From Streptomyces sp. TS71-3 (GTDB lineage: Bacteria; Actinomycetota; Actinomycetes; Streptomycetales; Streptomycetaceae): 64,000 bases of DNA. Below the pieces are notes generated by a model. That model ran no database searches and was not told the origin of the DNA. It saw only the letters and a program-made list of their open reading frames with translations. Below, one piece after another: positions 22,888 through 63,600 of this stretch; positions within the stretch are counted from its first letter, which is position 1; each line of letters opens with the position of its first letter. The position numbers were made by a program, and so were the translations under genes. The DNA is taken from the NCBI RefSeq assembly GCF_018327685.1, contig NZ_BNEL01000003.1:310001-374000 (forward strand), in the 5' to 3' direction.

Positions 22888-22990
22888 TACCTTCCCGTTG
22901 CCTTCCCGGCCTTCCCGTTGCCTTCCCGACTTTCCCGTTGCCTTCCCCGGCCTTCCCGTTGCCTTCCCGACCTTCCCGTTACCTTCCCGC
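22888..22990. repeat. 20-bp minisatellite, five copies, inside operon
   Basis: CTTCCCGTTGCCTTCCCGGC-like units start at 22891, 22911, 22931, 22952 and 22972. The array fills the spacer between the deacetylase and the PLP-enzyme genes, and the stop codon of the deacetylase gene lies inside the last copy. Confidence 0.85.
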
Positions 22991-24373
22991 TCCCGTGTAC
23001 AGGCCGCTTTCCGCCGGGTCGATCCTCAGGGCGTCCGCGAGCGGATCCGCCGTGGCACGCGCGGTGGTGAGCAGCCGCGGCCTGCGCGGGATCACCGTGC
23101 CGCGGTGGAAGACCACCTCCCCGGCGGCCACGGTGGAGACCACGGACTTCGAGGCGCGGTCGACGACCGCGACATCGGCGTCCGCGCCCACCGCGATCGT
23201 CCCCTTGTTCCGCAGTCCGAGGGTGCGCGCCGGAGTCCAGGACGACTTCTGGACGAACTCCTTGAGGCTCAGGGCACCCAGTTCCACCAGGGACAGGCCG
23301 GAGTGCACGGTGACGTTGCGCGGGATTCCGCCGCCGTCGGTGGCGATGGCCGCGACGTCGAAGGCTCCCTTGCCGTTCTTCGAGGCGACCAGCGGGACCC
23401 TCGACGCGGCCGGGTTGAGCGGCAGGCACAGGCCGATGTGCGTTCCGGCCTCCTCCCACGCCCTGACGCCGGCCGGGCCCGACAGCGGGACGGTGTGGTC
23501 GCCGTCGCGGTGCGGGATCGCCGCCCAGCCCTCCAGGATCGCGGCCCGCATGCCGTCCTGGGTGCCCGGGTAGCCGCCCTGAACCAGCCACTCGGCGACC
23601 CTGGGCACCGTGGGCAGCCCGTCGGCGCAGTCCGCGATGTTGCCGTTGATCTCGGCGAGGTAGGACTCCGCGAACAGGTGCGGTGAGCCGCGCAGGAGCT
23701 GGACGGCCTCCCGCGCCTCGTCCTCGGGTGCCGCGAGGTCGCCCCGGCAGTAGCTGTTCACGTGCGCGATCTGCGCCGGCCGCCCGTCGAGGTACTCGAC
23801 GGTCTGGCGCAGCCCCTCGATGTTGCTGCCCGCGCTGCTGGTGCCGCAGTGCACCGCCAGCCACACCCCCAGCTCGTGCGCGGTCTCGGCGATGGCCGCG
23901 GCGCTCTCCACCGACCAGCCGGAGTCGACGTGGATCTTCACCCCGAGCGCCCCGTCCGCCAGGATTTTCTCGAACGCGCCCCTGATATCGCCGCGGCTGG
24001 GCGAGGCGGACAGGTGGAGCCCCGGAACGAGGCGCACCACACATGCGATGTTCAGTCCGGTGCCGTAGCGCTCGGCCAGCTCGAACACGTCGGCGGCGGA
24101 CGGGGTTCCGAGATCCAGTGCGGTGGTCACCCCGGCGCGCGCCAGCATGGCGTGGCCGGCGTCGCCGCCGAAGCCGCTGTCGAGGTGGACGTGGAGATCG
24201 ACGAGGCCGGGGAGCACGTAGCAGCCGTCCGCGTCGATGACCGATCTCGTCGGCCCGGTGACGGAATCCTCGATCGCCGTGATCCGGCCGGCCTCCACCG
24301 CCACGTCGGCGAACCGGTCGGTGTCGCCGGCGAAGTCGACGAGACGACCGTTCTTGATCACCAGATCATGCAT
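22979..24373 (-). CDS. Metal-dependent amidohydrolase / deacetylase (Atu3266-like or D-aminoacylase-like)
   Basis: 464 aa; ATG at 24373. Amidohydrolase-superfamily enzyme with a binuclear metal site: GLVDLHVHLD (H61, H63), the Lys that is usually carboxylated in GALGVKIHVD (K146), His in LAVHCGT (H175), His in QIAHVNSY (H204), and the catalytic Asp in AIATDGGG. N-terminal beta-sandwich strands (VIKNGRLVDFAGD) and the C-terminal return (NKGTIAVGADADVAVVD) complete the fold. Best guess is removal of an N- or O-acyl group from an imported compound. It lies between an AbgT-type transporter and a D-threonine-aldolase-like gene, both separated from it by minisatellite spacers. Confidence 0.88.
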   Translation of the reverse strand: MHDLVIKNGRLVDFAGDTDRFADVAVEAGRITAIEDSVTGPTRSVIDADGCYVLPGLVDLHVHLDSGFGGDAGHAMLARAGVTTALDLGTPSAADVFELAERYGTGLNIACVVRLVPGLHLSASPSRGDIRGAFEKILADGALGVKIHVDSGWSVESAAAIAETAHELGVWLAVHCGTSSAGSNIEGLRQTVEYLDGRPAQIAHVNSYCRGDLAAPEDEAREAVQLLRGSPHLFAESYLAEINGNIADCADGLPTVPRVAEWLVQGGYPGTQDGMRAAILEGWAAIPHRDGDHTVPLSGPAGVRAWEEAGTHIGLCLPLNPAASRVPLVASKNGKGAFDVAAIATDGGGIPRNVTVHSGLSLVELGALSLKEFVQKSSWTPARTLGLRNKGTIAVGADADVAVVDRASKSVVSTVAAGEVVFHRGTVIPRRPRLLTTARATADPLADALRIDPAESGLYTGAGR

Positions 24374-24461
24374 GCTGGACTTTCCCTTCCTCGAAGCGGT
24401 CCGAGCCTTCCTCGACGCGGACCGAACGGTCGCTGACGCGGACCGGCCGGAGCGACCGGAC

Positions 24462-24532
24462 CGGCCGTGGTCGCCGACCGGCCGTGGTCCCCGAGCGGCC
24501 GTGGTCCCCGAGCGGCCGTGGTCCCCGAGCGG
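24462..24532. repeat. 17-bp minisatellite, four copies, inside operon
   Basis: Unit CGGCCGTGGTCCCCGAG starts at 24462 (variant), 24479, 24496 and 24513, directly after the stop of the transporter gene. On the sense (minus) strand it reads as alternating purine/pyrimidine GC repeats. Confidence 0.85.
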
Positions 24533-24541
24533 TCGGACCGC

Positions 24542-26065
24542 TCAGCCGAGCTTCAGCCCGACGCCGGGGCCGACCGGTATCCCCGCGAAGTAGAAGACCG
24601 CCAGCACCGCGAACCAGGTCACCGCGGCCGCGGGGACGAAGAAGCTGGTGCGCCTGATCAGCCAGCCGATGGTGATACTGGAATCGATCTTGCGTGCTTC
24701 GTTGTAGGTGAAGTAGATGAACACGTTGGCCGGCGAGACGACGGACCCCCACTGCACCGCCATCCGGAAGGCGATCTGAAGCCCGGCGGGAGCCAGGCCG
24801 TTCAGCATCAGGGCGGGCACCATCACCGGCGCCTCCAGTCCCCACAGGGCCGTGCCGCTGATGAACACGCTCATCACCGCGGTGAGGATCGCCACCGCGA
24901 GCAGCGCCAGGTAGCCGGTGATCCCGATGTGGTCGAGTCCCGAGGCGATCCCGACGGCGAAGAAGGACGACAGGTTGGACCAGGTGAGCACCGAGATCAC
25001 CTGCGCCAGCACGAAGACGATGACGATGAAGCCGGACATCTCCCTGATGGAGTTCGTCAGCAGCGGCAGGAGCTTGCGCTGCTCCTTGGGGATGCCCGCG
25101 ACGCGCCCGTAGATCATGCCGAAGATGACGAAGGCCAGCGCCAGGATCGGCACGAGGTTCTTGAGGAACGGGGACTGCACCAGCGCCCCGCCGTCGCCGC
25201 GCAGCGCGCTGCCCGGCCACAGCCACCAGGCGATGACGACCGCGATGTAGGCGGCGACCGCGGCAAGGCCGAGCGCCACCGCCCGGTACTGCGCGCGCGT
25301 GACGACGACGCCCCTGTCCGGGGTGCCGGAGCCGGCGGCGGCGATCGGCGCGATGCGGGGTTCCAGGATGTGGACGGTCACCCAGCCGAGCACGAGCGGC
25401 AGCACGATCCCGATCGTGGACGTGATGAACCAGTTCATCGTGACGCCGGTGTCGGAGACGTAGCCGGGCACGTGGGCGAGCTTCGCCGCGCTCTCGGTCA
25501 CCGCGGTGTAGCCCACGTCGGACGTACCGAAGACCAGACCGCCGCCGTAGCCGACGGCGACGCAGGCCAGTCCGGCCACGAGGCCGGCCAGCGGGTTGCG
25601 TCCCTTGGCCTTGAAGATCTGCATCGCCAGCGGCGGCAGCAGGACGAACGAGCCGTCGGAGAGCACGTGTCCCTGACAGCAGAGGAAGGCCACGCCGTAC
25701 GGCACGATCCGCGCCGGCACCCGGGCGAACGCGATCCGCACCGCCGTCTCCAGGGCGCCGGTTCCCTGGGCGACGCCGAGGCCGAGGACCATGGTGAGCG
25801 TCACCCCGAGGGCGGGGAAGTCCACGAAGTTGGTGATGGCGCCGGTCAGCAGGTTCAACAGGCCCTGGCCGGAGAAGAAGCCGAGGATCGGCGTGCTCTT
25901 TCCCCCAGCGGCGGTGAAGGAGACGCCGGCCGCCGAAAGGATCGACGAGGTGATCGCTATGGCGAGGAACAGTGCACCGAGGATCACCAGGGGACCCGGG
26001 ACCCTCCGGGTCGGCTTCTGACCGGTCGTTCCGGGCGAGCCGGTGGGCGTGGCGACGCTTACCAT
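24542..26065 (-). CDS. AbgT-family transporter
   Basis: 507-aa polytopic membrane protein with about 12 helices. It resembles the AbgT (p-aminobenzoyl-glutamate / MtrF) family: CCQGHVLSDGSFVLLPPL, SIREMSGFIVIVFVLAQ and the C-terminal AVQWGSVVSPANVFIYFTY. Known members import aminobenzoyl-glutamate or export sulfonamides; here, beside catabolic enzymes, import of an N-acylated amino acid is more likely (inference). Start ATG at 26065 overlaps the ridA stop by 7 nt (ATGGTAA), so the two are translationally coupled. Confidence 0.85.
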   Translation of the reverse strand: MVSVATPTGSPGTTGQKPTRRVPGPLVILGALFLAIAITSSILSAAGVSFTAAGGKSTPILGFFSGQGLLNLLTGAITNFVDFPALGVTLTMVLGLGVAQGTGALETAVRIAFARVPARIVPYGVAFLCCQGHVLSDGSFVLLPPLAMQIFKAKGRNPLAGLVAGLACVAVGYGGGLVFGTSDVGYTAVTESAAKLAHVPGYVSDTGVTMNWFITSTIGIVLPLVLGWVTVHILEPRIAPIAAAGSGTPDRGVVVTRAQYRAVALGLAAVAAYIAVVIAWWLWPGSALRGDGGALVQSPFLKNLVPILALAFVIFGMIYGRVAGIPKEQRKLLPLLTNSIREMSGFIVIVFVLAQVISVLTWSNLSSFFAVGIASGLDHIGITGYLALLAVAILTAVMSVFISGTALWGLEAPVMVPALMLNGLAPAGLQIAFRMAVQWGSVVSPANVFIYFTYNEARKIDSSITIGWLIRRTSFFVPAAAVTWFAVLAVFYFAGIPVGPGVGLKLG

Positions 26066-26469
26066 GTCACTCTTTCGCTAGAACCACGGGGAACGCCGGC
26101 CGAGGCGATGGCCTCCACCTCGACTCGCGCGCCGTAAGGGAGTGCGCCCGCCGCGTAGCAGGTCCGGGCGGGCCGGGGCTCGGTGAAGAACTCCGCGTAG
26201 ATCGCGTCGAATTCACCGCGCTCGGCGAGGTCCGCAAGGAGCACCGTGGTCTTCACGACGTCGGCCGGGCCGCGGCCGTGTTCGGCCAGGCACGCCTTGA
26301 GGTTCGCCAGTGCCTGGCGGGCCTCGGCGCCGATTCCACCGGGCACGATGTCGTCGTCGAGGACGCCGAGCTGCCCGGACACGAAGATCAGACCTGCTGC
26401 GGTACGGCTCGCCGAATAGGGGTGGTCCGCGTCGGAGAAGCGCTTGGGTGCGACCGGCCGGGAGTGCAT
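26059..26469 (-). CDS. RidA-family reactive-intermediate deaminase
   Basis: 136 aa. The ATG at 26469 is preferred over a TTG two codons upstream because AGGAT sits about 7 nt before it. RidA features: YSASRTAAGLIFVSGQLG, EARQALANLKACLAEHG, ADVVKTTVLLADL, and the active-site Arg in PARTCY. RidA proteins hydrolyse enamine/imine intermediates made by PLP enzymes, which fits the D-threonine-aldolase-like or dehydratase enzyme encoded in the same unit. First gene after the operator region; the following transporter gene overlaps its stop. Confidence 0.92.
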   Translation of the reverse strand: MHSRPVAPKRFSDADHPYSASRTAAGLIFVSGQLGVLDDDIVPGGIGAEARQALANLKACLAEHGRGPADVVKTTVLLADLAERGEFDAIYAEFFTEPRPARTCYAAGALPYGARVEVEAIASAGVPRGSSERVTW

Positions 26470-26728
26470 AATCAATCCTAAATATCCAGTTTTGGCGGTA
26501 TAAATCGAGCGCGACGGGTCGCGTGCCCGGCAACGCGCATCACGCGCTCACACGGGTTCCGTTGACCAGGGGGGTGTTGCGCAACGGGTGCGCGGCGCGC
26601 CGTGCGCCATCCGCCGGCGGACGCCTGCGAATTCCGCCGGGCGACGTCTGCGGTGACCCGCCGGCGGACACCGTGGAGTCGACGGCGATGCCCGGGATTT
26701 CCGGGCGACCCTCCGCCGACCCAGGATC

Positions 26729-26765
26729 GGCTAGACACACTGTCTAGCCGCTCAGACAAAATGTC
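26729..26765. promoter_or_regulatory. Tandem operator: two GACAnnnTGTC palindromes 21 bp apart
   Basis: Site 1 (26729-26749) is a perfect 9-bp inverted repeat, GGCTAGACA-CAC-TGTCTAGCC. Site 2 (26755-26765) keeps the core, GACA-AAA-TGTC. Their centres are 21 bp apart, two helical turns, so dimers would bind on one face. They lie just downstream of the regulator gene and about 260 bp upstream of ridA. The DauR-type regulator encoded next door is the natural candidate to bind. Confidence 0.6.
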
Positions 26766-26794
26766 AAGGAAAAGTATGGGGCGGATCGATCCCG

Positions 26795-27592
26795 CTACGC
26801 GCCGGTGTCGGTGCCGCGTGCCGCGTTGAGATCCGCGTAGACGGTCGCCCGCGAGACGTTGAGATACACGGCCACCTGCTGGGCCGCCCGCGGCAGCTTG
26901 AAGACGCCCTTGGAGTCCAGCGCGCCGATGATGGCGATCCTGCCCTTGCGGGTGTCCCTCGGGAGCACCCGGCCGAGCAGCGCCTCCTCCTGTGCGATCA
27001 CGGTCTCGATGACGTCGCCGATGTCGTCGGAGAAGACCGTCATCGACGTGGCCTCGGGCTCGGGCGTGCTGCCGATCAGCGCGGCGAGGGAGGTGGCGGC
27101 CACCTGCAGCCCCGTGATGTCGAGGTTGACGCACAGAGCCCCGACGACGCGTCCCGAGCCGGTGCGCAGCAGCATGGTCGAGGACTTCACCGTGCGGCCG
27201 TCGGCGATGCGGGTGGTGTAGTTGAGCTGGTCCTGGGCCTGGTCGCCCTGGGCCAGCAGCCCGAGGCCGATCTCGCTCATCGCGCCGCCGACGTGCCGGG
27301 AGGTCACCGAGCCGGACAGCGCGCGGATGCTGTTCTCGGGGTGGCGGAAGTCGTGCAGGACGACCTCGCAGGACGGCCCGAACGTCGCCGCCAGCCCGCT
27401 CACCAGTGGCTCGACGGCCAGCAGCAGCGCTTCCACCTCGTCGGACCCGTACTCGTCGGACCCGTACTCGTCGGATCCGCGCTCACCGGGCCCGTGCTCC
27501 TCGGGCCCGTGCTCACCGGGCCCGTGCTCACCGGGCCCGTGCTCATCGGGCCGGCGCTCATCGGCCGGGTCGACGCGCACCTCTGCAGCCAT
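26795..27592 (-). CDS. DauR/YheO-type transcriptional regulator (PAS-like + HTH)
   Basis: 265 aa; the ATG at 27592 is preceded by GAGGG 7 nt upstream. Residues about 12-50 are an acidic repeat (EHGPG and DEYGS units) encoded by 12-15-bp DNA repeats at about 27440-27560. Then a YheO-like PAS domain (FGPSCEVVLHDFRHPENSI, GRTVKSSTMLLR, VGALCVNLDITG) and a C-terminal helix-turn-helix (LDSKGVFKLPRAAQQVAVYL, then NVSRATVYADLNAAR). The only characterised homologue I recall, DauR, represses D-arginine use, which suits a D-amino-acid-type operon. Same strand as ridA and its followers, and directly upstream of the tandem palindromes. Confidence 0.88.
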   Translation of the reverse strand: MAAEVRVDPADERRPDEHGPGEHGPGEHGPEEHGPGERGSDEYGSDEYGSDEVEALLLAVEPLVSGLAATFGPSCEVVLHDFRHPENSIRALSGSVTSRHVGGAMSEIGLGLLAQGDQAQDQLNYTTRIADGRTVKSSTMLLRTGSGRVVGALCVNLDITGLQVAATSLAALIGSTPEPEATSMTVFSDDIGDVIETVIAQEEALLGRVLPRDTRKGRIAIIGALDSKGVFKLPRAAQQVAVYLNVSRATVYADLNAARGTDTGA

Positions 27593-27865
27593 TCTGACGC
27601 CCTCTTCCACGCATGACACCGAACTCAGCACGCCGGGTCCGGTCGGCTTCGGCCGGTACCGCCCCGTTCTGTCCCCTGCCCCCACGGAGTCTCCCACGGT
27701 GACACACTCCGCCGGATGGCACCCAAGAGACCGTGAGGCCGCGAGGCCGTGCAGAGCGCCACGGGGCCCGTCACGTCGAGCGACGGCAGGCACACCTCGT
27801 GTCAGCGCCGCCTGTTGCGTACGCACTCCTTGTCCCTGCCATGACACCGACCGGCCGGGCCCTCG

Positions 27866-30800
27866 TCACGACCCCGCGCACACCGGCTGCGCGGGCACGT
27901 GGACCGGAAGGCCCCGCCGTTCCTCGGCGGTGAACTCGCGGAAGCCGATGGCCCGGCACAGCGCCCGCTGCCAGAGTGCGGGATCGAGGGGGAGCGGCCC
28001 ACCGGCGCCGCCCGCCCCTGCGTAGATCACGCTCTTGCCGTTTCCCGACGCGCTCAGGAACGTGTAGCCGGGACCGTTGGGGGTGCCGGAGGAGGTACCG
28101 AACTCGTAGGAGTCCTCGTACGCGCCCTGGCCGACGCGGTAGATGCGGACTGCGTTCTGCGCGGCGAGCAGGAACCGGCCCTGGTCGTCGACGAAGTGTG
28201 CGACGTAGCTGTCGCTGTCGTCCTCGACGCTGGTCAGCGCCGGGAGTTCCCTGCGCAGGGGGTCTCGCCGCCACAGTTCGAGGGTGCCTCCGGAGCGGAG
28301 TACCACGAGGTGGTGTCCGCCGGGGTCGAACTGGACCCCGTGGGTGTCGGAGCCGAGTCGCATGCCTGCCGTGGTGTGTCCGCTGGTGAGGTCCAGGACG
28401 TGGACCACCGGATCCCCCCAGGCGACGACGGCCACCGAGTCGGGCGCGGGATAGCGGCCGACGAACAGTTCCAGCGTGCCGTTCTTCTCCGTCCGGGGGT
28501 GGAAGACGTTCGCGTCGAACTGCGCGAGCCGCCGTCCCGTGTGCGGGTCCCACTGCTGGATGAGCGTGCCGGAGACGGTCACCAGGCGCCCGGTCCGGTC
28601 GAAGAAGCAGGCGAAGTTGCCGTTCCCGGCGCTCCGGGGCCGCGGCTCGGCCGTGGTGACGCGGGTGATCCGCCGCAGGGTGGAGACATCGTGAACGGAG
28701 ACGGTGTTCTCGCCGTCCCGCACGGCCAGGAGCCGGCCGCCCGCGTCGAGTTGGAGCGAGTCGCCCTGCCCCAGGTCCCAGCACGGCTCGGGGCGCCGCG
28801 CCTGGGCGAGGAGTTCCGCTCCGCCTTGCGCCGACCGCAGTTGGAGGGCGCAGCCGCCCTTCAAACCCCCCTTCACACCGCCCTTCACGGCGACGATCAC
28901 GTTCCTGCCGTCGTCAGTGAGGACCTCCTTGGCGGCGTCGACGGTGCCGGGGGCGGCAGGCACCCGCGCGTAGCCGACCCGGGTCTCGTCGAACGTCACC
29001 AGCAGCGGCACTCCGTGGTCGGAGACCAGCCGCGCGGGCGCGCCCGCCGTGGAGAACCGCGAGACCACCGTGCCCTGGTCGAGGTCGAGCAGCCGCAGCG
29101 ACGCCGCGTCGGCGGCGCCGGCGTCGGGTCCGAGGACGATCCGGTGCCCAGCCTCGTCGGTCGCCTCCATGCCGCATTTCAGGTCGTGGCCGGTGTACAC
29201 CCTGCCCTGCCGCTTGCCGTCCCGCACGCGGGTGACATCGAGGGTGACGTGGCCGAGTCCGGACTCCCGGCACGCCGCGACCGCGCTTCCGTCGCCCGAG
29301 ACCAACTCCTGGTCGGCGCCCGGCGTCACCGGCCTGGTCCTGCCCGTCGTCCGGTCGACGGCGACGATCCGGCTCCGGCCGCCGGACGCGTCGACCGTCG
29401 CCAGCAGCGTCCGGTCGTCCGTTCCGAACCACACGTCGCCCCAGGCGTGCGGTGGCAGGGGCACGGTGCCGCCGGCACCGGTGTCCAGGCTCCGCCAGGC
29501 GAAGCCGCTCGACGTGGCGTACGCGAGCAGCCGGCCGTCGGGGGAGAGCGCGGCGAGGGAGGCGTGCGTCTCGGGCAGCAGCGTGGCGTTCACGTCGGAG
29601 TAGTGGGGGCGGGGCAGGCCGCGGGCCGGCGGCAGATGGTGGACGGGCCGGGTGATGCGGTCGGCGTCGGGCGTGACGGGGTACCAGTCCACGGAGCCGT
29701 CGGAGTTGACCGTCACGGCCCGGGTGCCGTCGGCCGCGACCAGCGGATACATCCTGTGGACCTCCGACGGCAGGCGCCACATGCGCATCCGCCCGGTCGC
29801 GGCGTGCACGAAGAGGGTCGCGCGGCCCGAGGAGGAGCCGACCAGCAGCACCTCGCCGTCCCTGCTCGTCCGGAAGTCCGCGGCGGGTCCCTGGAAACCG
29901 GAGTCGATCCGGCCGGACGGGATCTGCCGCAGGTACTGCTGGAGGAGCCGGTCCCGTGCCTCCTGCGTGGGTGAGGTGCGGTACGCGGCGATGGCCAGCA
30001 TGGCCGACAGGCCGGGGTCGGAGCCGGCCTCGTCCGCCGAAGCCGTGGCCAGGTGACGGGACTCGGCGTGCGCGGCGTTCTCCTCGCCGCGCTGGTGCTG
30101 GCCGTACAGGAGGGTGCCCAGCACCAGCGTGAGGACGACGGCCAGCGCGAGGCCGGAGACGAGTGATCGACGCCGCCGGGCCTGAGCCCTGCGATGGGCG
30201 CGCCCGCGTGCGAGGTAGTCGAGCTCGGTGACCGTCAGATCGGGGCCACGGGTGCGCTGCCACGGCCGGGCGGCGGTCAGCATGGCGGGCGTCGGCAGCA
30301 GGTCCGTGGCGCGCCCGCCGCTCTCCCAGCGCTCCATGTCGTGCCGCAGCGTCTCCCGCCAGGCCAGGAACGACCGGTCCCGCGCGACCCACTCCGCCGA
30401 CCTGGCCCAGCCCGTGATCAGCGCGTCATGGGAGAGTTCGACGGTCTCGGTGCCCTCGGCGCCGCGTGAGACGACCAGCAGCCGGGTGGCGGCCAGCCGC
30501 TGGGCGACCCGCCATTCGGCCTCGCCCAGCTCCGTGCGCGCCGCGACGCGGCGCGTCACGGGCGCCGATCCGAGCGGCACCCGGATCAACTGGGTGAACA
30601 GGCGGCGGGCGGCCGGCTCGTCATCCTCGGAGACGCTCTCGGCCCACGCGCGGTCCGCGTACTGCCCGAGCGCCCCGGGCACCCGGCCGAGCCGGTCGTA
30701 GGCGTCGTGGGTCAGGACGCCGTCCTGCCGGCGCCGCCACAACAGGTCGAGGGTGAGTCCCAGTAGCGGGAGCGCGCCTGGTGCGTGCCCGGTGTCGGCG

Positions 30801-32281
30801 AGGATCCGGTCGGGGAGGTTCTCCTCGTAGCCCGCACCGGGGATGGCGTCCACCGGCGCGGTGATGACCTCGCGTAGTCGTCCGGCGCTCATCGGACGAA
30901 GGACGTACACCTGTTGCCCGATGTGCGCTCCGATGCGCGGGTGGGCGAGCGCCGCCTCCAGGAAGTCGGCCCGCAGCGTGGTCAGGACCCGGACGGAGGG
31001 GGGCAGCGCGTCGGTGAACAGCACGTCGGCCAGCTTTTCGGCGGCTTCCGGCTCCGCGGCGAGCAGTTCCTCCAGCTGGTCGACCACGACCAGCAGCCGG
31101 ACCTCGTCGCTCGCAGCGCCGGGCTCCGGGCCCTCGTCGCTCCCAGCGGCGGGCTCCGGGCCCTCGTCGCTCCCAGCGCCCGCCAGCCTCCCGACGACCT
31201 GCGCGAACCCGCCCGGCCGGGTCAGCTCCGCCACCAGGGGGCGGATCCGCAGCAGCCGGGTGGTCTCGGGAAGATCCGGCTCCAGCAGCGGCAGCAGCGC
31301 GGCCGCGAGGGCGGACAGCGGGCTGGAGCCCGCGTCGGGCCGCATCACGACCGGTACGGTCCCCGCGGCCCGCAGGGACGGTGCGACTCCCGCCATGGCC
31401 AGGGACGACTTGCCCGAACCCGAGGGGCCGACGACCGTCACCCAGCGGTGGGCCGCCACCATCCGGGCCACCTCGCGGCCCTCCTCGCGCCGGCCGTGGA
31501 AGACGGGCGCGTCGTTCTCCCTGAACGCCGCCAGCCCGCGGAAGGGCGGGGCCGGCAGCAGGAGGCCGCGCAGCTCGGGCCAGGCATCCGCCAGCCGGCC
31601 GGTGGGCACCAGGTAGCTCGCCGAGGGCTTCCCGGCCTCCGCCACCGCCACCATGCCGACGACGCCCGCGAGATGCTCGTCCCACACCGGGGAGCCGCTG
31701 AAGCCTCCCGAGACCGGATAGCCCGCGCCGGCCAGATCGGCCTGCACCCATCCTGCCGCCTGCGATCCGCGCAGGACCCCGGCGTGCCAGACGCCGCCGG
31801 GGCGGCCCTCGGGAAGGCCGAAGACGCGGACGGGGTGCCCCCAGATGTCCTCGCCTCCGGCCGCGACCAGCCGCACGGGCCGCGCACCGGGCAGCGGTGC
31901 GGGCAGCCGCAGTACGGCCACGTCTCCGGCGCCGGAGGGGCCCGGCGCCGTCCACTGCTCGACCCGGGCGGTCACCCTCGTGCCGTCCGCACCGGAGGCC
32001 GGCAGCAGCGGCAGGTCGACCTGGACGCCGGCACCGGGCGGGGGCGGTTCGTCCCCGGAGCCGCCGAGCGCGGCGGACACGACGTGCGCGCACGTCAGGG
32101 CCACGTCGGCGGAGACCAGGAAGCCCATGCCGACGGCCTCGCCCCGGCCGTCGCGGATCCGCAGCACGGCGGCGCCCAGGGCGCCGGGTCCCGCCAGCGC
32201 GTCGGGTCCCGCCAGTGCGCGGGGCTCCGCCGGTGCGCCGGGTCCCGCCGGTGGGTCCGTGCCGGCGGGCGGCGGGGTCAT
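27866..32281 (-). CDS. Trypsin-like protease / STAND NTPase / TM / beta-propeller conflict protein 1
   Basis: 1471 aa. Residues 36-240: chymotrypsin-fold protease with an intact triad, His in LTCAHVV (H66), Asp in GDVAVLRL (D120), Ser in GGFSGSPVW (S195). Residues about 247-690: STAND-type NTPase, Walker A GPSGSGKSS (285-293), Walker B LLVVVDQLEELL (D401), with sensor and winged-helix-like parts (TLRADFLEAAL, ELSHDALITGW). One membrane helix at about 705-727. The remaining 740 residues are WD40/TolB-like propeller repeats. Such trypsin-STAND-propeller proteins belong to proposed prokaryotic immune/conflict systems. A 30-bp repeat codes AGSDEGPEP-type units at 369-393, between Walker A and B. 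Start overlaps the stop of the small trypsin-co-occurring gene (ATGA). Paralogue of the gene at 32860-37488. Confidence 0.9.
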   Translation of the reverse strand: MTPPPAGTDPPAGPGAPAEPRALAGPDALAGPGALGAAVLRIRDGRGEAVGMGFLVSADVALTCAHVVSAALGGSGDEPPPPGAGVQVDLPLLPASGADGTRVTARVEQWTAPGPSGAGDVAVLRLPAPLPGARPVRLVAAGGEDIWGHPVRVFGLPEGRPGGVWHAGVLRGSQAAGWVQADLAGAGYPVSGGFSGSPVWDEHLAGVVGMVAVAEAGKPSASYLVPTGRLADAWPELRGLLLPAPPFRGLAAFRENDAPVFHGRREEGREVARMVAAHRWVTVVGPSGSGKSSLAMAGVAPSLRAAGTVPVVMRPDAGSSPLSALAAALLPLLEPDLPETTRLLRIRPLVAELTRPGGFAQVVGRLAGAGSDEGPEPAAGSDEGPEPGAASDEVRLLVVVDQLEELLAAEPEAAEKLADVLFTDALPPSVRVLTTLRADFLEAALAHPRIGAHIGQQVYVLRPMSAGRLREVITAPVDAIPGAGYEENLPDRILADTGHAPGALPLLGLTLDLLWRRRQDGVLTHDAYDRLGRVPGALGQYADRAWAESVSEDDEPAARRLFTQLIRVPLGSAPVTRRVAARTELGEAEWRVAQRLAATRLLVVSRGAEGTETVELSHDALITGWARSAEWVARDRSFLAWRETLRHDMERWESGGRATDLLPTPAMLTAARPWQRTRGPDLTVTELDYLARGRAHRRAQARRRRSLVSGLALAVVLTLVLGTLLYGQHQRGEENAAHAESRHLATASADEAGSDPGLSAMLAIAAYRTSPTQEARDRLLQQYLRQIPSGRIDSGFQGPAADFRTSRDGEVLLVGSSSGRATLFVHAATGRMRMWRLPSEVHRMYPLVAADGTRAVTVNSDGSVDWYPVTPDADRITRPVHHLPPARGLPRPHYSDVNATLLPETHASLAALSPDGRLLAYATSSGFAWRSLDTGAGGTVPLPPHAWGDVWFGTDDRTLLATVDASGGRSRIVAVDRTTGRTRPVTPGADQELVSGDGSAVAACRESGLGHVTLDVTRVRDGKRQGRVYTGHDLKCGMEATDEAGHRIVLGPDAGAADAASLRLLDLDQGTVVSRFSTAGAPARLVSDHGVPLLVTFDETRVGYARVPAAPGTVDAAKEVLTDDGRNVIVAVKGGVKGGLKGGCALQLRSAQGGAELLAQARRPEPCWDLGQGDSLQLDAGGRLLAVRDGENTVSVHDVSTLRRITRVTTAEPRPRSAGNGNFACFFDRTGRLVTVSGTLIQQWDPHTGRRLAQFDANVFHPRTEKNGTLELFVGRYPAPDSVAVVAWGDPVVHVLDLTSGHTTAGMRLGSDTHGVQFDPGGHHLVVLRSGGTLELWRRDPLRRELPALTSVEDDSDSYVAHFVDDQGRFLLAAQNAVRIYRVGQGAYEDSYEFGTSSGTPNGPGYTFLSASGNGKSVIYAGAGGAGGPLPLDPALWQRALCRAIGFREFTAEERRGLPVHVPAQPVCAGS

Positions 32282-32655
32282 GGCGCGGGTGAGGACGCGG
32301 CGGTGCCGGCGCCCCCGGCGGACTCGCGGTTCCAGGTCAGGCAGACCTTGAAGTTGGCCTGAGCGGACGTGCTGGAGACCACCACGTCGGCCTGGGCCGA
32401 CAGCGAGAGACCGAACTCCACGGTGATCTCGTCCGGCGCGTGCGCCATCGTGCTGAAGCCCTCGACGAAGTGCTGCGCGACGGGACGTACACCCGCGAGC
32501 AGGTCGCCGAGGGAGCGCGTGGCGCGTGCCACCACCTGCCCCGGCCGGGCGACCTTGACCAGGCCGTCCTGCGGAGCCTCCTCGATCGCGACCTTGATGA
32601 CCCCGTCCGGTGCGCCCTCGTCCCCGGCGACCGGCACCTCCACCACGTACGCCAT
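32278..32655 (-). CDS. Trypsin-co-occurring domain 1 (CU044_2847-like) small protein
   Basis: 125 aa; the ATG at 32655 is preceded by GGGGG 9 nt upstream. It reads MAYVVEVPVAGDEG, then GVIKVAIEEAPQDGLVKVA, a helix RATRSLGDLLAGVRPVAQHF, and DEITVEFGLSLSAQADVV. This is the layout of the family seen beside trypsin-STAND effectors (Trypco1): a beta-strand, a helix, and a strand with the EFGLSL-type motif. Its stop overlaps the next gene start by 4 nt, so the pair is coupled. It probably acts as a partner or substrate/adaptor of the protease-NTPase; the mechanism is unknown. Confidence 0.8.
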   Translation of the reverse strand: MAYVVEVPVAGDEGAPDGVIKVAIEEAPQDGLVKVARPGQVVARATRSLGDLLAGVRPVAQHFVEGFSTMAHAPDEITVEFGLSLSAQADVVVSSTSAQANFKVCLTWNRESAGGAGTAASSPAP

Positions 32656-32730
32656 GCCGTCGATCCCCCTTCGACGTCCGTCCTGAGTCCGATGGCCCGT
32701 CACGCGTCCGGCGACCACGCTGGTGACCCG

Positions 32731-32785
32731 GACTCCCGGTGCGGGCCCTCGACTCCCGGTGCGGGACTCCGACTCCCGGTGCGCG
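32731..32785. repeat. 20-bp minisatellite, three copies
   Basis: GACTCCCGGTGCGGG-type units start at 32731, 32751 and 32771, in the 204-bp spacer between the second giant conflict gene and the Trypco1-like gene. Confidence 0.8.
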
Positions 32786-32859
32786 CCGCCTCGTTCACGA
32801 CAGGCAGGAGCGTGCGAGAAGAACGTACCGCAATCGCCCGCACGGCAACCCGGCGCCGG

Positions 32860-35800
32860 CTACCGCCCGTCGGGACACGCGGGCTTCGGCGGCAGATGCG
32901 TCGGCAGGCCGGCTCGTTCCCGGGCCGTGAAGTCCCGGGAGCCGATGACCGCGCACAGCCGGCGCGCCCAGAGAGCCGGGTCGAGCGGAAGCACACCGCC
33001 CTCGCCGCCGGGGCCGCCGTCCTCGTAGACCAGGGCCGTGCCGTCGCGTGCGGCGCCAGGGACGTCATACGGCGTGTCGATCAGGGCGTCCGCCGGGCTG
33101 TCGAGGTCGTAGGAGGAGCCGTAGGCGTGCGATCCGACCTGGTACACGCGCGCCTTGCCGGCGGCCGCCACGAGGTAGTGGCCCTGGTCGTCGACGAAGC
33201 GGGCGACATGGGCGTCGTTCCCCAGCGGTGGCAGCGGACCGACCTCCCTGGACTGCGGTCGGCGCCGCCACAGCTCGATCAGGCCGCCGCTGCGCTCCAC
33301 CGCCAGGAAACGCCCACCCGGGTCGAACTCGACGGCCGCGGTGTCCCTGCCGGTGGTCACGTGGGCGGTCTCGCGGCCCTCGGCCAGGTCGACCACGTGC
33401 ACCCGCGGATCGCCCGGCACGGCGACGGCGACCGTGTCGTCCGCGGGGTAGGCGGCGACGGACACCTCGGGCCTGCCGTCGCCGGCGGTCCCGGGGTGGT
33501 AGACGGACGTGTCGAACCGGGCGAGTTGCCGCCCCGTGTGCGGGTCCCACTCCTGGACGACGGTGCCGGAGACCGTCACCAGGTGCCCGGACCGGTCGAA
33601 GAAGCAGGTGAGCGTGGACTGCTCCCCCTTGCTCGGCGGCGGAGCGGCCGTGGTGATCCGAGCGGTGCGGCGCAGCGTCGTGGCCCGGCGCACGGAGATG
33701 GTGCCCGTGCCGTCCCGGTCAGCGACGAGTGTCCCGTCGTCGCTGACGACGACGTGGTCGCTCGTCAGGGAGGGATCACGGAACGGTGCGGGGCGGGCGG
33801 CGTCGGCGAGCACCTTGTCCGGGTCGTCCACCGAGCGCACCTGGATCCGGGCGCCGCCCTTGGCGATGCCCACCACGGTCCTGCCGCCGGGGGTGATGCC
33901 GGCGGTGTGGACGTCGAGCGGGACGGGACCTGGCAGCGCGGTGTAGGAGAGCCTGTTGCCGATCATCCCGATGAGCGTCGGAGCGCCCCGGACCGAGGCG
34001 TACGCGAGCCCTATCTCGCTACCGCCGGCACCCAGCCCGTCGGCCCGGGAGACCACCGTGCCGTGGACCAGGTCGACGAGGCGGACGTCGTTGCCGTCCT
34101 GAAGGACGGCCCGCCGCCCGGTGTCGTCCACGGCCTCCAGGTTGCAGATGTCCGCGCGCTCGGAGAAGCCGCGGAGCGGCGGGCCGCCGGCCACGGGCCG
34201 GCCGCCGTGGGTCGCCTGGCCCTCGTAGATCGCACGGCCGCCGTAGATCGCGCGGCCGTCATGCAGGCGGCAGGTCACGACTGCCGCGCCGTCGCCGGAG
34301 ACGATCAGCTCGTTGGTGGCCGCCGATGGCTCGTTGGTGGCCGTTGATGGCTTGTTCGTGGCCACCGCAGGCTCGTTCGTGGCCTTTGATGGCTCGTTGG
34401 TGCCCGCCGATGGCCCGTTCGTGGCCGCCGATGGCCCGTTGGTGGCCGCCGCAGGCTCGTTCGTGGCCGCCGCCGGCCCGCTGATGCCCGCCGCTGGCCC
34501 GCTCGTGTCCGCCGCCGAATCGCTCGCGTCCGCCACCGGCACCGGGTGCTCCGCACCCGTGATCCGGTCGACCGCGACGAGGCCCACGGACCGGTCGCCG
34601 GTTCCGCCGGTGTACCGCCTCGCCAGCACCGTGCGGTTGTCCGCACCGAAGAAGAGACTGTCGCTGGAGTCGATGCCGTCGGGCGCCCGGACCCTGCCGC
34701 CGAGGGTCCCCCGGTCCAGGTCCCACCACACGATGTGCGTGTCGGACGCCGCCGCGACCACGCGCCCGTCGGGCGAGAACACGGCCCGGTGGTCGTCGTA
34801 GAGCCCCTCCTCCACCTCCGGCGCGGCGGGCAGGCGGTGGGCGCGTCCGGCCACGGGGGCGCCGTCGTCGGACCTGTTCACGCGGTACCAGAAGAGGGAG
34901 CCGTCCTGGCCGACGTACCCCGCCCGGCTGCCGTCCCGGGAGACCAGGGGATAGAGCGCCGGCACGGGTTGCCGTAGCTGCTCGCTGCGGATCCTCCCGG
35001 TGGCGGCGTGCACGTAGAGAATCGCCTTGCCGCCCGTGGAGCGGGCCAGCACCACGTCGCCGTCGCCGCTCGCCTGGTAACCGCCGAGCGAGTCGGGCAG
35101 CCCGGACAGCTGCCGCGTGGTGCCCGCGTAGCGGACGTAGCTGCGCAACAGCGCGTCGGTGGCCTCCCCGGTGGACGAGGTCCGGTACGCGGCCAGGGCC
35201 AGCATGGTCGACTCGACCGGGTCCGCCTTCGCCCGGTCCGACGAGAGCTGCGCCAGCGCGAGGGAGTCGGCCCGCTCCTGCTGGGCGCGGCTCTCCCGGC
35301 GCTGGAAGGCGAGCAGGGTGCCCAGGACGACCGCAAGAGTGACCACCAGCGCGAGCCCCGAGAGGAAGAAGCGGCGCATGCGGGCGCGCAGTCGCCGGCG
35401 GGCCCGGCCCCGTTCCAGGTAGTCGTGTTCGGCGGCCGTCAGGTCGGCGGCGTGTTCCCGCAGCCACGGCTCCGCGCTCGCCAGGGTGGCCGGGGTCGGC
35501 AGCAGATCCGTCGTGCGTCCGCCGAGCTCCCAGCGCTCCCTGTCGTGCCGCAGCGCTTCGCGCCAGCCGAGGAACGAGCGGTTCTCCGCCACCCAGTCGG
35601 CCAGCCTCCCCCACCCGGTGATCAGCGCGTCGTGGGCGAGCTCGACGGTCTCGGTCCCCTCCGCCGTGCGGCCGGTGACCAGCAGCCGGGTGGCGGCCAG
35701 GCGCTGCGCCACGCGCCACGCGCCGTCGCCCAGATCCGAGCGCAGCGCGGTACGCCGGGTCACGGCGCTGGACCCCATCGGGAGCCGGATGAGCCCGGCG

Positions 35801-37488
35801 AGCAGGCGCCGGCCCGCGTCCTCGTCCTCCTCGTCCTCCTCGAAGACGCACTCGGACCACGCCTGGACGGCGTACTGCCCCAACGCCCCGGCGACTCCGC
35901 CAAGGTGCTCGTAGGCACGATGCGTCAGCAGGCCGTCCCGCTGGTGCTGCCACAGCAGGTCGAGGGTGAACCCGAGCAGCGGCAGGGCACCCGGCGTGTG
36001 CCCGGCGTCGGAGAGGATCCGCTCGGCCAGGCCGGCTTGGTAGGACACGGACGGCACGCCGGCGACGGCCGCCGTCACCACCTCGCGCAGTTGCCGGGCT
36101 CCCATGGGGCGCAGGACGTAGGGGTTGCGGGGCAGTACCGCCCCGATCCTGGGGTGGTCGAGCGCGGCCTGGAGGAAGTCGGCCCGCAGCGTGGTGAGTA
36201 CGTGCACGTCGGCCGGGAGCGAGCCGGCGTCGAACAGGACGCGGGCGAACCGGTCGAGTGCGGCCGGCTCCGCCGTGAGCAGTTCCTCGAACTGGTCGAC
36301 GACGATGAGGAGGCGGTCTGCGCCGGTGATCCGCAGGACGCCGGGGACGACGTCGGCCAGGGAGTGCGTTGCGAGGAGTGTGGTCAGGGCCTGGATGTGG
36401 GGGCGGGGTTCGCTCTCGGCGCGGGGGCCTTGCTCCCTGTCGATACGTGCGCGCCGCTCGCTCTCGATGCGAAGGCCCTGCTCGCTCCCGATACGAGAGC
36501 CCTCTTCGCCCTCGGCGGTGCCGGGTTCGAGCAGTGGCAGGAGCGCGGCGGCGAGCGCGGACAGCGGGTCGGGCCCGGTGCCCGGTCGCAGGACTGCCAC
36601 CGCGTACCCGTCGGATCGCAGTCCAGGTATGACCCCGGCCATCGCGAGTGAGGACTTGCCGGAGCCGGACGGTCCGACCAGGCAGGTCCAGGACCGGGTG
36701 GCCACCAGGCGGGCGAGTTCCCCGGTCTCCTCCGCCCTCCCGTGGAACACGGCCGCGTCGGTCTCCCGGAAGGCCGCCAGGCCACGGAACGGCGAGGGCG
36801 GAAGGGCGAGCTCGCGCAGCGGCGCCCAGGCGCTGGCCAGCGCACCGGTGGGTATCAGATAACTGGCGGGCGGCTCACCGGATTCGGCGACCACGACGAT
36901 GCCGACGACCCCGCAGAGCTCGTCGTCCCAGACAGGGCTGCCACTGAAGCCCCGGGAAACGCGGTAGCCGTTCGCGGCGAGGTCCAGTTGTACCCACCCG
37001 TCCGCCTGGCCGGCACGCAGCAGGCCAGCGTGCCACACCCCGGCCGGGCGCCCGTCCGGAAACCCGAACGCGCGCGCGGAATGGCTCCACAGATCCCGGC
37101 CCGTGACCAGCCGGACCGGTCGCCCCTCTGGCGGCGGGACCGAAAGCCGCAGGACGGCCATGTCCTCAGCACCGCGGCCCGCGTCGGGGCCCCACACCTC
37201 GACACGGGCGCTGGTCGTGCCCTGCGCCATGCCGTCACCCCGGCCGGGCACCAGCGGAAGGTCCACCTGGACTCGGGAAGCCTCGTCGGGCACCCGGCCG
37301 TCCGGGATGCCGAGTGCGGCCGAGACCACGTGGGCGCAGGTCAGTGCCTGATCCTCGGTGACGAGGAGCCCGACGCCCACCGGCTCGCCCTGAGCGTCGA
37401 AGATGCGCAGCACGGCCCGATCCAGGTCCGCGGGCCCGGGTCCCCCCGCCCCCGCTGCCTGGGCGGCGTCCTGCCCGGCCACCGTCAT
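32860..37488 (-). CDS. Trypsin-like protease / STAND NTPase / TM / beta-propeller conflict protein 2
   Basis: 1542 aa, same architecture as its downstream neighbour and clearly its paralogue. Triad: His in LTCAHVV (H53), Asp in AEDMAVLRL (D109), Ser in RGFSGSPVW (S182). Walker A GPSGSGKSS at 272-280, Walker B LLIVVDQFEELL (D398), a membrane helix near 755-778 (FFLSGLALVVTLAVVLGTLL), then the propeller. Two insertions are repeat-encoded: an Arg/Glu segment between Walker A and B (RIGSEQGLRIESERRARID) and nine heptads of xPSxATN type within the propeller (21-bp DNA units, about 34310-34510). Cysteine protease or nuclease domains are absent; the trypsin domain is the likely effector. A 308-bp promoter interval lies upstream. 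Confidence 0.9.
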   Translation of the reverse strand: MTVAGQDAAQAAGAGGPGPADLDRAVLRIFDAQGEPVGVGLLVTEDQALTCAHVVSAALGIPDGRVPDEASRVQVDLPLVPGRGDGMAQGTTSARVEVWGPDAGRGAEDMAVLRLSVPPPEGRPVRLVTGRDLWSHSARAFGFPDGRPAGVWHAGLLRAGQADGWVQLDLAANGYRVSRGFSGSPVWDDELCGVVGIVVVAESGEPPASYLIPTGALASAWAPLRELALPPSPFRGLAAFRETDAAVFHGRAEETGELARLVATRSWTCLVGPSGSGKSSLAMAGVIPGLRSDGYAVAVLRPGTGPDPLSALAAALLPLLEPGTAEGEEGSRIGSEQGLRIESERRARIDREQGPRAESEPRPHIQALTTLLATHSLADVVPGVLRITGADRLLIVVDQFEELLTAEPAALDRFARVLFDAGSLPADVHVLTTLRADFLQAALDHPRIGAVLPRNPYVLRPMGARQLREVVTAAVAGVPSVSYQAGLAERILSDAGHTPGALPLLGFTLDLLWQHQRDGLLTHRAYEHLGGVAGALGQYAVQAWSECVFEEDEEDEDAGRRLLAGLIRLPMGSSAVTRRTALRSDLGDGAWRVAQRLAATRLLVTGRTAEGTETVELAHDALITGWGRLADWVAENRSFLGWREALRHDRERWELGGRTTDLLPTPATLASAEPWLREHAADLTAAEHDYLERGRARRRLRARMRRFFLSGLALVVTLAVVLGTLLAFQRRESRAQQERADSLALAQLSSDRAKADPVESTMLALAAYRTSSTGEATDALLRSYVRYAGTTRQLSGLPDSLGGYQASGDGDVVLARSTGGKAILYVHAATGRIRSEQLRQPVPALYPLVSRDGSRAGYVGQDGSLFWYRVNRSDDGAPVAGRAHRLPAAPEVEEGLYDDHRAVFSPDGRVVAAASDTHIVWWDLDRGTLGGRVRAPDGIDSSDSLFFGADNRTVLARRYTGGTGDRSVGLVAVDRITGAEHPVPVADASDSAADTSGPAAGISGPAAATNEPAAATNGPSAATNGPSAGTNEPSKATNEPAVATNKPSTATNEPSAATNELIVSGDGAAVVTCRLHDGRAIYGGRAIYEGQATHGGRPVAGGPPLRGFSERADICNLEAVDDTGRRAVLQDGNDVRLVDLVHGTVVSRADGLGAGGSEIGLAYASVRGAPTLIGMIGNRLSYTALPGPVPLDVHTAGITPGGRTVVGIAKGGARIQVRSVDDPDKVLADAARPAPFRDPSLTSDHVVVSDDGTLVADRDGTGTISVRRATTLRRTARITTAAPPPSKGEQSTLTCFFDRSGHLVTVSGTVVQEWDPHTGRQLARFDTSVYHPGTAGDGRPEVSVAAYPADDTVAVAVPGDPRVHVVDLAEGRETAHVTTGRDTAAVEFDPGGRFLAVERSGGLIELWRRRPQSREVGPLPPLGNDAHVARFVDDQGHYLVAAAGKARVYQVGSHAYGSSYDLDSPADALIDTPYDVPGAARDGTALVYEDGGPGGEGGVLPLDPALWARRLCAVIGSRDFTARERAGLPTHLPPKPACPDGR
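34310..34510. repeat. 21-bp in-frame repeat encoding (A/S)xATN(E/G)P heptads
   Basis: About nine head-to-tail 21-bp units inside the propeller of conflict protein 2. The encoded heptads differ at two or three positions each (EPSAATN, KPSTATN, EPAVATN, EPSKATN, GPSAGTN). The array sits between two propeller strands, so it forms an exposed loop. Confidence 0.85.
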
Positions 37489-38786: not shown

Positions 38787-39779
38787 CTAGGGCAGGGCCT
38801 CAGGGTTGGTGCTGGCGTATCCCTTGCCCTCCGGCCAGATCAGCGCGCATCCCTGGGATTGGGCAAGGGCCAGGAGGTCTTCGCGCGGCTTCGACGGAAG
38901 GAGAATGCCGCGCACTGAGTGCTCAACGAACCTCCCATAGTCGGCGAGCTGGCCGATGGCCATGCGCACGTTCTCCCGGGTGACGCTGCCCTTGGCTTCG
39001 GTCAGAAGACCAAGGTCCTGGCAGTGCAGATCGGTGAAGAGCGGACGCGTCTCGCCGGGCGGCAGGATCCTATGCCGACTGGCCGGGTGACCCTCTTGAG
39101 CGAGATGTTCGGCGAACGCCTTCACCAGACGGGCCTCCCTCCGGTCGGCTTCGTACACCTCGCGGTTGGGATTGACGAAGGTTGCCTCCGTCTCGTTCCG
39201 TTCCAACGGCATCTCGTCGACCTGGTTGGGCTGAGCGTTGAGCAGGCGGCCGAGCCTAGTGCTGGGTTGCTCCGGCTCGGTGTCAACCGGCCTGAGGCAG
39301 AAGACGATGACCTTCCGTGGGGGACCATCACTGGTCTCTGGTGCGTCGGCCGTGTACCAGGGGTTCTCTGAGTCAACGACGAACTCGCCGCGGTAGGTGA
39401 CGGTTCCGCGGGCGCCCTGGAAGACGCGAAGCGCCCGCCCCTCTGCCTTGTGGTTCAGGATGCTGGCGTTGCCGGACACCATTCGCTGATCGCCGTACTG
39501 CCCTTCGCCGCTGTAGTGGAAGCAGCCGTCCGGCATCCAGTCGTCGTAGTAGCCGTGCTTCTCGCCCGCGACGGGATCCGTGAAGACGAAGACATTGGGT
39601 GTCTTGGCGGACGGGCCGATCCCCCCTTGGGTCCGGCCCCCGAATCGATTGTGCAGTTCCTTACGTTCGATCCGATCACCGGGCTTGAGCGTCCACTCGA
39701 CCGAGCTGGGTGCCGTCTTCACCTGCTTCCTCCCGTCATCGCGGCCCTTACCGAACAACCTGACGAGAGCATGCCACAT
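38787..39779 (-). CDS. SRA-like (ScoMcrA-type) / PD-(D/E)XK candidate modification-dependent restriction enzyme
   Basis: 330 aa. Residues about 28-170 match the SRA-like domain seen in ScoMcrA-type proteins: LKPGDRIERKELHNRFGGR, QGGIGPS, KHGYYDDWMPDGCFHYSGEG, then QYGDQRMVSGNASILNH. SRA folds flip out modified cytosines. Residues about 245-285 carry a PD-(D/E)XK-type core, TDLHCQDLGLLTEAKGS: D250, then E261-A-K263, followed by a helix VRMAIGQLADYGRF. Together these suggest a single-chain type IV restriction enzyme attacking modified foreign DNA. ScoMcrA itself uses HNH, so this is a different nuclease partner. GC content looks lower than in neighbours, consistent with transfer. Catalysis is inferred from motifs. 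Confidence 0.75.
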   Translation of the reverse strand: MWHALVRLFGKGRDDGRKQVKTAPSSVEWTLKPGDRIERKELHNRFGGRTQGGIGPSAKTPNVFVFTDPVAGEKHGYYDDWMPDGCFHYSGEGQYGDQRMVSGNASILNHKAEGRALRVFQGARGTVTYRGEFVVDSENPWYTADAPETSDGPPRKVIVFCLRPVDTEPEQPSTRLGRLLNAQPNQVDEMPLERNETEATFVNPNREVYEADRREARLVKAFAEHLAQEGHPASRHRILPPGETRPLFTDLHCQDLGLLTEAKGSVTRENVRMAIGQLADYGRFVEHSVRGILLPSKPREDLLALAQSQGCALIWPEGKGYASTNPEALP

Positions 39780-50649: not shown

Positions 50650-50699
50650 GGCCCGGTCCTGCGGTGGTCCGTTCTGGGCCTTGCTGTCCCGCGTCCGGC

Positions 50700-51262
50700 T
50701 GACCGCCGGCGGGCTTTTTCTGCGCAGTTCCCCGCGCCCCTTATCGGGGCCCCTTCTCGGCCCTTGCTGTCTTGCGTCCGGCTGACCGTCGGCCGGGGTT
50801 TTCGCGCAGTTCCCCGCGCCCCTGATCAGCCAGCGGGCCAACCGCTTGCTGTCTCATCGCGGTCATCCGCCGCACCGGCCTCTCGCACAGTTCCCCACGC
50901 CCCCGATCAGCCACCCGACCAGCCCCTTGCTCTCTCGCCGCGGCCATCCGCCACACCGGCCTCTCGCACAGTTCCCCACGCCCCCGATCAGCCACCCGAC
51001 CAGCCCCTTGCTCTCTCGCCACGGCCATCCGCCACACCGGCCTCTCGCACAGTTCCCCACGCCCCCGATCAGCCACCCGACCAGCCCCTTGCTCTCTCGC
51101 CACGGCCATCCGCCACACCGGCCTCTCGCACAGTTCCCCACGCCCCCGATCAGCCACCCGACCAGCCCCTTGCTCTCTCGCCGCGGCCATCCGCCACACC
51201 GGCCTCTCGCACAGTTCCCCACGCCCCCGATCAGCCACCCGACCAACCCCTTACTGCCTCCC
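50700..51262. repeat. Tandem array, 81-bp period, about seven copies of a core also found elsewhere
   Basis: Cores begin at 50722, 50804, 50885, 50966, 51047, 51128 and 51209. The first two contain GCGCAGTTCCCCGCGCCCCT exactly; the last five read GCACAGTTCCCCACGCCCCC and are nearly identical to one another over the full 81 bp. 81 is a multiple of three, so both strands show long spurious repeats in translation, but no ribosome site precedes them. It is a non-coding minisatellite between convergently unrelated genes (peroxidase and MerR gene, same strand). Confidence 0.9.
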
Positions 51263-63237: not shown

Positions 63238-63600
63238 GCGCAGTTCCCCGCGCCCCTGGCCAGGTGGCCTTGCCTGCCATGACCATCTGCGGGCATCGTC
63301 GTGGTTTTTTGCGCAGTTCCCCGCGCCCCTAGCCAAGTACCCCTGAGCGCCCCGGTTCTCTGCGGCTGCCGTCCTGGTCGTTCGCGCAGTCCCCCGCACC
63401 CCTATCCAAGTACCCCTGAGCGCCCCGGTTCTCTGCGGCTGCCGTCCTGGTCGTTCGCGCAGTCCCCCGCACCCCTATCCAAGTACCCCTGAGCGCCCCG
63501 GTTCTCTGCGGCTGCCGTCCTGGTCGTTCGCGCAGTCCCCCGCGCCCCTATCCACGTGCCCCTGGGTGTCGTGGCTCTCTGCGGGGATTGTCATGGTTGG
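63238..63600. repeat. Tandem array, 73-bp period, five cores
   Basis: Cores at 63238, 63311, 63384, 63457 and 63530, exactly 73 bp apart. The first two contain GCGCAGTTCCCCGCGCCCCT exactly; later ones read GCGCAGTCCCCCGCACCCCT. Units 3-5 are nearly identical along their length. It shares only the core with the 81-bp array at 50.7 kb. Confidence 0.9.

Follow-up and report, generated by a model that had tools for sequence, protein, structure and literature searches.

Two large paralogous reading frames with a small gene between them, on the minus strand of Streptomyces sp. TS71-3, raise the questions of what kind of system these genes encode and whether the short tandem repeats inside the larger ones have any part in it. 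We looked at both in a 64,000-nucleotide stretch of DNA (the window) that lies on contig C3 of a 9.79-Mb genome in three contigs. The genes are transcribed in the order receptor B (37488 to 32860, 1542 aa), the small protein T (32655 to 32278, 125 aa) and receptor A (32281 to 27866, 1471 aa), with a gap of 204 bases between B and T and an overlap of 4 bases between the end of T and the start of A; the arrangement of two frames of this size around a small gene, reported in an earlier note on this DNA, is therefore present. The domain content of the three proteins exceeds chance expectation and they are real genes of a known kind, in the form of a membrane-receptor variant. A and B are 54% identical across approximately their first 1000 residues and 41% identical across a second aligned stretch of 515 columns.

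Architecture of the two large proteins

Both proteins begin with a trypsin-like protease followed by an nSTAND1 NTPase. In A the protease was called by Pfam as Trypsin_2 with 49.2 bits (31652-32131, residues 51-210), and in B, where no Trypsin_2 call was obtained at E 1e-3, the sequence still aligns with A over this region (36814-37425, approximately residues 22-225) and keeps the triad as H53, D109 and S182. A putative trypsin-like triad is thus found in both proteins, and across the best 120 of 526 homologues the His is kept in 119, the Asp in 118 and the Ser in 120. The nSTAND1 domains (PF20703; A 30305-31546, residues 246-659; B 35512-36792, residues 233-659) score 314 and 308 bits in A and B against a curated cut-off of 27.1, and Walker A and Walker B are both present. 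The intact triads and Walker motifs that had been read from the sequence earlier are borne out by these residues.

A single membrane helix follows in each protein from about residue 707 (A 30104-30163, residues 707-726; B 35305-35370, residues 707-728), in both cases behind an Arg-rich flank. Among the best 120 of 526 homologues the positive-inside bias is strong in all 115 proteins that bear a helix, and four of the five conserved cysteines fall in the propeller half. Charge bias and cysteines, which are the whole basis of the topology, together suggest that the protease and NTPase are cytoplasmic and that the propeller sensor lies outside. A membrane-tethered, NTP-gated protease, as proposed in the earlier note, matches this anatomy and gains support from the topology evidence.

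Behind the helix, the propeller half of B (32980-35127, residues 788-1503) was modelled confidently by AlphaFold2 (pLDDT 84.3, pTM 0.83) as two WD40-like propellers (model residues 43-441 and 444-758), and structure comparison matched the model to WD40 propellers over two stretches, which upholds the claim of a propeller. The solved WD40 proteins at the top of the structure lists are mostly intracellular and eukaryotic. The corresponding half of A (27962-29956, approximately residues 776-1440) was located by alignment to B, and a sequence search with A gave no solved relative at E up to 0.01. On aligned sequence, the propellers are the more divergent part of the protein throughout the family, with mean identities over 1500 pairs sampled among the best 120 of 526 homologues of 0.39 and 0.44 for the two propellers compared with 0.64 and 0.62 in the enzyme half. 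The six pairs with the most similar enzyme halves agree, with 92-97% identity in trypsin and STAND and 79-91% in the propellers, although a ranking by enzyme-half identity is biased toward that half, a bias from which the 1500 sampled pairs are free. Between A and B themselves, identity is 60% in the trypsin and 63% in the STAND domain versus 37% and 49% in the two propellers.

The Trypco1 partner and the wider family

T belongs to the Trypco1 family (PF19493), with 84.8 bits against a curated cut-off of 24.6. No membrane helix was detected in it (top 19-aa hydropathy 1.08), its structure model is poor (pLDDT 51), no solved relative of Trypco1 was found at E up to 1, and Pfam hits of Trypco1 outside its own family were weak and uninformative. 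A Trypco1-like protein had been expected as partner and it is indeed a frequent one, as 31 of 47 related receptor genes have a Trypco1 gene within 700 bp on the same strand, upstream in 27 of these 31; the 47 are receptor frames of more than 1000 aa with estimated starts in 45 loci, of which L036 and L167 are one frame entered twice, L172 has a single Trypco1 gene counted for both neighbouring receptors, and L115 and L160 are left out as having shorter frames only. The other 16 receptor genes have no Trypco1 nearby and no remnant of one was found upstream of B (best E 8.3), so Trypco1 is not strictly required. In the tandem receptors of L034 and L114, each receptor has a Trypco1 gene of its own.

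The genome has two more Trypco1 genes, each adjoining a trypsin-fusion gene. One (locus L236, 2127-7001) is upstream of the gene for a trypsin protein of 1493 aa, in which nSTAND5 matches below the cut-off, and the other (locus L237, 7112-14461) is followed by a trypsin-VMAP-C gene, a MoxR-like AAA gene and a gene for a 1207-aa TPR protein, a set that looks like a canonical ternary system. Trypco1 therefore accompanies trypsin fusions across different types of switch.

With respect to which domain T may act on, we correlated Trypco1 distances with those of the receptor domains over 50 receptor-Trypco1 pairs, made up of 18 from the loci, the window's own and 31 without seen adjacency, with at least one receptor entered twice (L158 and P0028). 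The correlation was highest for STAND (r = 0.83), followed by trypsin (0.76) and propeller (0.69), and the partial correlations at equal column numbers, which control differences in domain rate and length only in part, were 0.40, 0.10 and 0.13 respectively. This pattern gives a hint, weak because domain rates differ and most pairs are without seen adjacency, that Trypco1 may act on the NTPase switch, and such tracking of STAND over trypsin would not favour direct contact with the protease.

A protein search with B returned 526 homologues, none of them near-identical, the closest being P0002 from S. sediminimaris with 68% identity over 63% of B; an A-like protein, P0065, is recorded for the same species. 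In another member of the genus, the last 700 residues of the L158 receptor are identical to those of a receptor recorded for S. bambusae. A search with the 366-aa N-terminal part of B finds matches in 33 of 392 genus genomes at E 1e-60, whereas at E 0.001 there is a match in 98 of 121, many of them short or partial and distant, the own genome being included in both counts. Homologues were found on 34 plasmid records, of which 29 are from Streptomyces (E up to 1e-30), and phage records gave no match to the 366-aa part at E up to 1e-10.

No genes other than the receptor and Trypco1 recur widely across the window and its 45 related loci. Nine more families of neighbours are each shared by 3 or 4 loci, and each is represented by a kinase, transporter, regulator or metabolic enzyme. 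In the window, the receptors are flanked by what looks like a small catabolic operon on one strand (22979-27847), with an amidohydrolase, an AbgT-type transporter and a RidA-like gene beside a YheO-like regulator. On the other side, a 330-aa gene (38787-39779) is matched in part by a model for type IV methyl-directed restriction enzymes (E 4e-7) and has no Pfam match at E 1e-3; its product is possibly a reader of modified DNA.

The tree of the enzyme half places A as sister to P0065 and B as sister to P0002, with support of 1.0 each, so the divergence of A from B predates the split from S. sediminimaris. A recent tandem duplication was rejected on the same tree, since the A-B distance is 0.95 compared with 0.49 for each orthologue pair. 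With midpoint rooting, 119 of the 125 tips descend from the A-B ancestor, and with this rooting and the low support (0.18) of the wider B clade the depth of the split is uncertain. Other receptor pairs have common-ancestor clades of 2 to 53 tips, and as their depths differ pairing looks recurrent rather than the result of one shared event. That duplication gave two specificities, as the earlier note suggested, is possible, yet A and B diverged long ago and differ most in ordinary propeller sequence; if two specificities exist, substitutions in the propellers rather than the repeats are the likely basis.

Tandem-repeat insertions

Compared with a family alignment of the best 120 of 526 homologues, A carries insertions of at least 4 aa at residues 7-20 (14 aa, 32222-32263, overlapping an 18-bp array), 368-388 (21 aa, 31118-31180, on a 30-bp array immediately ahead of Walker B), 898-907 and 1132-1139 (8 aa, 28865-28888, on a 12-bp array in the propeller half). 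Those in B are at 333-364 (32 aa, 36397-36492, overlapping a 24-bp array), 987-1055 (69 aa, 34324-34530) and 1100-1106. Apart from A 898-907, all of these overlap an array called by Tandem Repeats Finder or, in the case of B 1100-1106, lie at most 8 bases from one, that is six of the seven. The nine heptads previously seen in the propeller of B (987-1055) are real, being encoded by a 21-bp array of 9.9 copies, and are modelled as a low-confidence loop between strands of propeller 1 (pLDDT approximately 31-37).

Inserts between Walker A and Walker B had been described as occupying the same place in both proteins. Both inserts exist but they do not share a position: counted from the first residue of Walker A, that of A starts at a distance of 83 residues and stops 7 short of Walker B, while that of B starts at 61 and stops 28 short, a difference of approximately 20 residues which implies two separate insertion events. 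We rejected the repeats as a feature of the family, because none of the 116 other homologues has an enlarged Walker A-B spacing; in the 118 homologues of the best 120 that show both motif patterns (2 do not), the median spacing is 98 with a 5th-95th percentile range of 98 to 101, and the window's B (130) and A (120) are the sole outliers. In P0002 and P0065, the S. sediminimaris orthologues, the spacing is normal and the same test detects no tandem repeat.

The enrichment of arrays at the locus above background is not significant. Seven merged arrays were observed versus an expectation of 4.3 based on genome samples (P for at least 7, 0.15) or of 5.7 based on the remainder of the window (P 0.34), and for arrays scoring at least 80 there were 4 versus 1.85 (P 0.12) or 3.0 (P 0.35) respectively. 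The genome itself is rich in such arrays, with 19.2 scoring at least 80 per 100 kb (77 in 400 kb) compared with 9.0, 8.5, 4.0 and 6.5 in four congeneric genomes (18, 17, 8 and 13 in 200 kb from each), which were picked for sequence continuity and not for kinship. At a score of at least 50 the densities are 44.8 here and 28.0, 33.0, 30.0 and 28.0 in the other four, so that the excess is 2-5 times for strong arrays and 1.4-1.6 times with weak ones counted.

The earlier description of repeat-diversified loops does not hold up against these observations, as the inserts are missing in the nearest orthologues, occupy different sites and fit the genome-wide excess of arrays. In the simplest reading they are probably lineage-specific products of slippage, tolerated in the loops of proteins in a repeat-prone genome. 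Against a neutral reading count the density of arrays scoring at least 50 in the window, which at 60.9 per 100 kb is above the 44.8 of the genome samples, and the position of two of the inserts inside the NTPase core.

Other repeats were seen in the same window. The YheO-like PAS/HTH regulator (26795-27847) has an N-terminal pentapeptide repeat encoded by 8.5 copies of a 15-bp unit (array 27437-27564), which is another example of a coding minisatellite in this genome. At 50679-51252 and 63297-63564 there are long tandem arrays, with units of 81 bp and 73 bp; their consensus units share a similar stretch (GCGCAGTTCCCCGCGCCCCT and GCGCAGTCCCCCGCACCCCT), and they are seemingly related elements.

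Relation to known systems and possible function

Several described systems share parts of this architecture. The available passages of PMC7159879 name Trypco1 as a neighbour of trypsin-bearing VMAP systems, and its VMAP/MoxR-vWA ternary systems resemble the locus in having a trypsin fused to the switch protein and a neighbouring Trypco1 gene. They differ from it in that switch and sensor here are one polypeptide, of nSTAND1 plus propellers. Searches of the window and the 45 loci by phmmer with the genome's own VMAP-C, MoxR-like and 1207-aa proteins, run without a positive control, found no relative at E 1e-3; representatives of the nine shared neighbour families are other proteins and the locus was not placed among the ternary systems. 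The same passages propose membrane-associated conflict systems, one kind of which has an extracellular domain behind a membrane helix, and describe the two-gene EACC1 system, which likewise pairs a small gene on the 5' side with a large 3' gene encoding a peptidase fusion and is associated with the membrane. nSTAND1 is named in the available text of PMC8195603 and reported there in some EACC1 systems. The Pfam calls Trypco1 and Trypsin_2 set the locus apart from EACC1, with trypsin in place of a caspase, Trypco1 in place of EACC1 and the membrane helix in the large protein instead of the small one.

The order effector, NTPase, sensor and the nSTAND1 switch are shared with STAND proteins that have an N-terminal peptidase and a C-terminal lectin-like or FGS sensor (nSTAND1/NACHT; PMC8195603 and PMC10907252, in their available parts), whereas here a membrane helix precedes a sensor made of two WD40 propellers. 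PMC10907252 in these parts also describes STAND sensors diversified by DGRs and Trypco1 as an adapter in related ternary systems; the sole RVT_1 match in the whole genome lies on contig C1, while the window lies on C3, and the locus was not classed with DGRs. A trypsin-like protease fused to a defence protein, with a separate upstream partner gene, is also found in the AVAST/Avs fusion of PMC12799240, in which, according to the available text, the trypsin-like domain works by activating a nuclease proenzyme and the partner is an MBL nuclease rather than Trypco1. PADLOC gave no Avs model match and nothing convincing for A, B or T, only weak mad3 matches (E 0.002-0.005). A trypsin-like domain also works in LypABC-dependent lysis (PMC13236601, available text), a CARD-NLR system with a CARD-bearing trypsin protein and a separate NLR, from which the locus is set apart by having protease and STAND in one chain. 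The exact two-gene arrangement was not found in the literature searched as text, without figures and supplements, and may well be drawn somewhere.

Taken as a whole, the scheme we prefer, to which we give about an even chance, makes A and B receptor-proteases of trypsin-nSTAND1-WD40 type that cross the membrane once. Most likely placed outside the membrane, the double propeller would bind a ligand, the signal would travel via the membrane helix to the nSTAND1 NTPase, which would switch and oligomerise, and the cytoplasmic trypsin-like domains would then become active and cleave a substrate, the probable result being that the cell is arrested or dies. Trypco1 would be a cytosolic adaptor or regulator co-produced with A, and the tandem-repeat insertions would not be a conserved part of the mechanism. 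The domains, the intact catalytic residues, the single helix, the double propeller of B, the recurring Trypco1 neighbour, the old split of the pair and the greater divergence of the propellers come from sequence or model, whereas topology, oligomerisation, substrate and a role in conflict are what we infer. An immune role for the locus is plausible.

Other readings depart from this scheme at different points. The same topology could serve a non-immune purpose, in a sensor of the envelope or of development with a protease directed at some regulator of the cell. Signals from the envelope or the hyphae would fit a sensor on the outside, and low-stringency matches are widespread in the genus (the 98 of 121 genomes, many partial or distant), but only 33 of 392 genomes match at the stricter threshold, and this sparse spread together with the 34 plasmid records and the divergent propellers suits an accessory conflict gene better, so that we regard such a sensor as possible and rather improbable. 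Placing the propeller inside, in a fully cytoplasmic STAND sensor that is only tethered to the membrane, would fit the mostly intracellular eukaryotic WD40 proteins that top the structure lists; the single helix in A and B, the positive-inside bias in 115 of 115 helix-bearing proteins and the four of five cysteines in the propeller half speak against it and make it unlikely. Least probable of all, and in our view doubtful in the extreme, are in-frame repeats as a diversity device that tunes sensing or gating of a conflict protein. In its favour, the arrays keep the reading frame, the heptads occupy a loop of a propeller and two inserts lie between Walker A and Walker B; on the other hand the sites differ between A and B, enlarged spacing is seen in 0 of 116 other homologues, the closest orthologues have no repeats, 7 arrays stand against 4.3-5.7 expected in a genome whose samples are repeat-rich, and the heptads are modelled at a pLDDT of 31-37.

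A more specific version of the preferred receptor-protease scheme takes its lead from Apaf-1 and the apoptosome (3sfz, 5juy), in which a STAND-type ATPase is likewise followed by two WD40 propellers and to which the model aligned over both. Unlike in Apaf-1, the protease here is fused and a membrane helix is present. Apaf-1 is soluble and recruits its protease. We tentatively consider, at clearly less than an even chance, a membrane-spanning apoptosome-like receptor in which the outside double WD40 propeller would detect a signal at the surface, for example from a phage that adsorbs or from a rival cell, nSTAND1 would assemble and the fused protease would be switched on, with A and B as an old pair and Trypco1 acting on the NTPase switch and not on the protease.

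Among bacterial STAND defence proteins, the well-studied ones, such as Avs, detect phage proteins within the cell. If true, a double-propeller sensor outside the cell combined with a fused protease inside would be a design closer to the surface immune receptors of animals, and the repeat controls warn against reading lineage-specific coding minisatellites as functional diversification.
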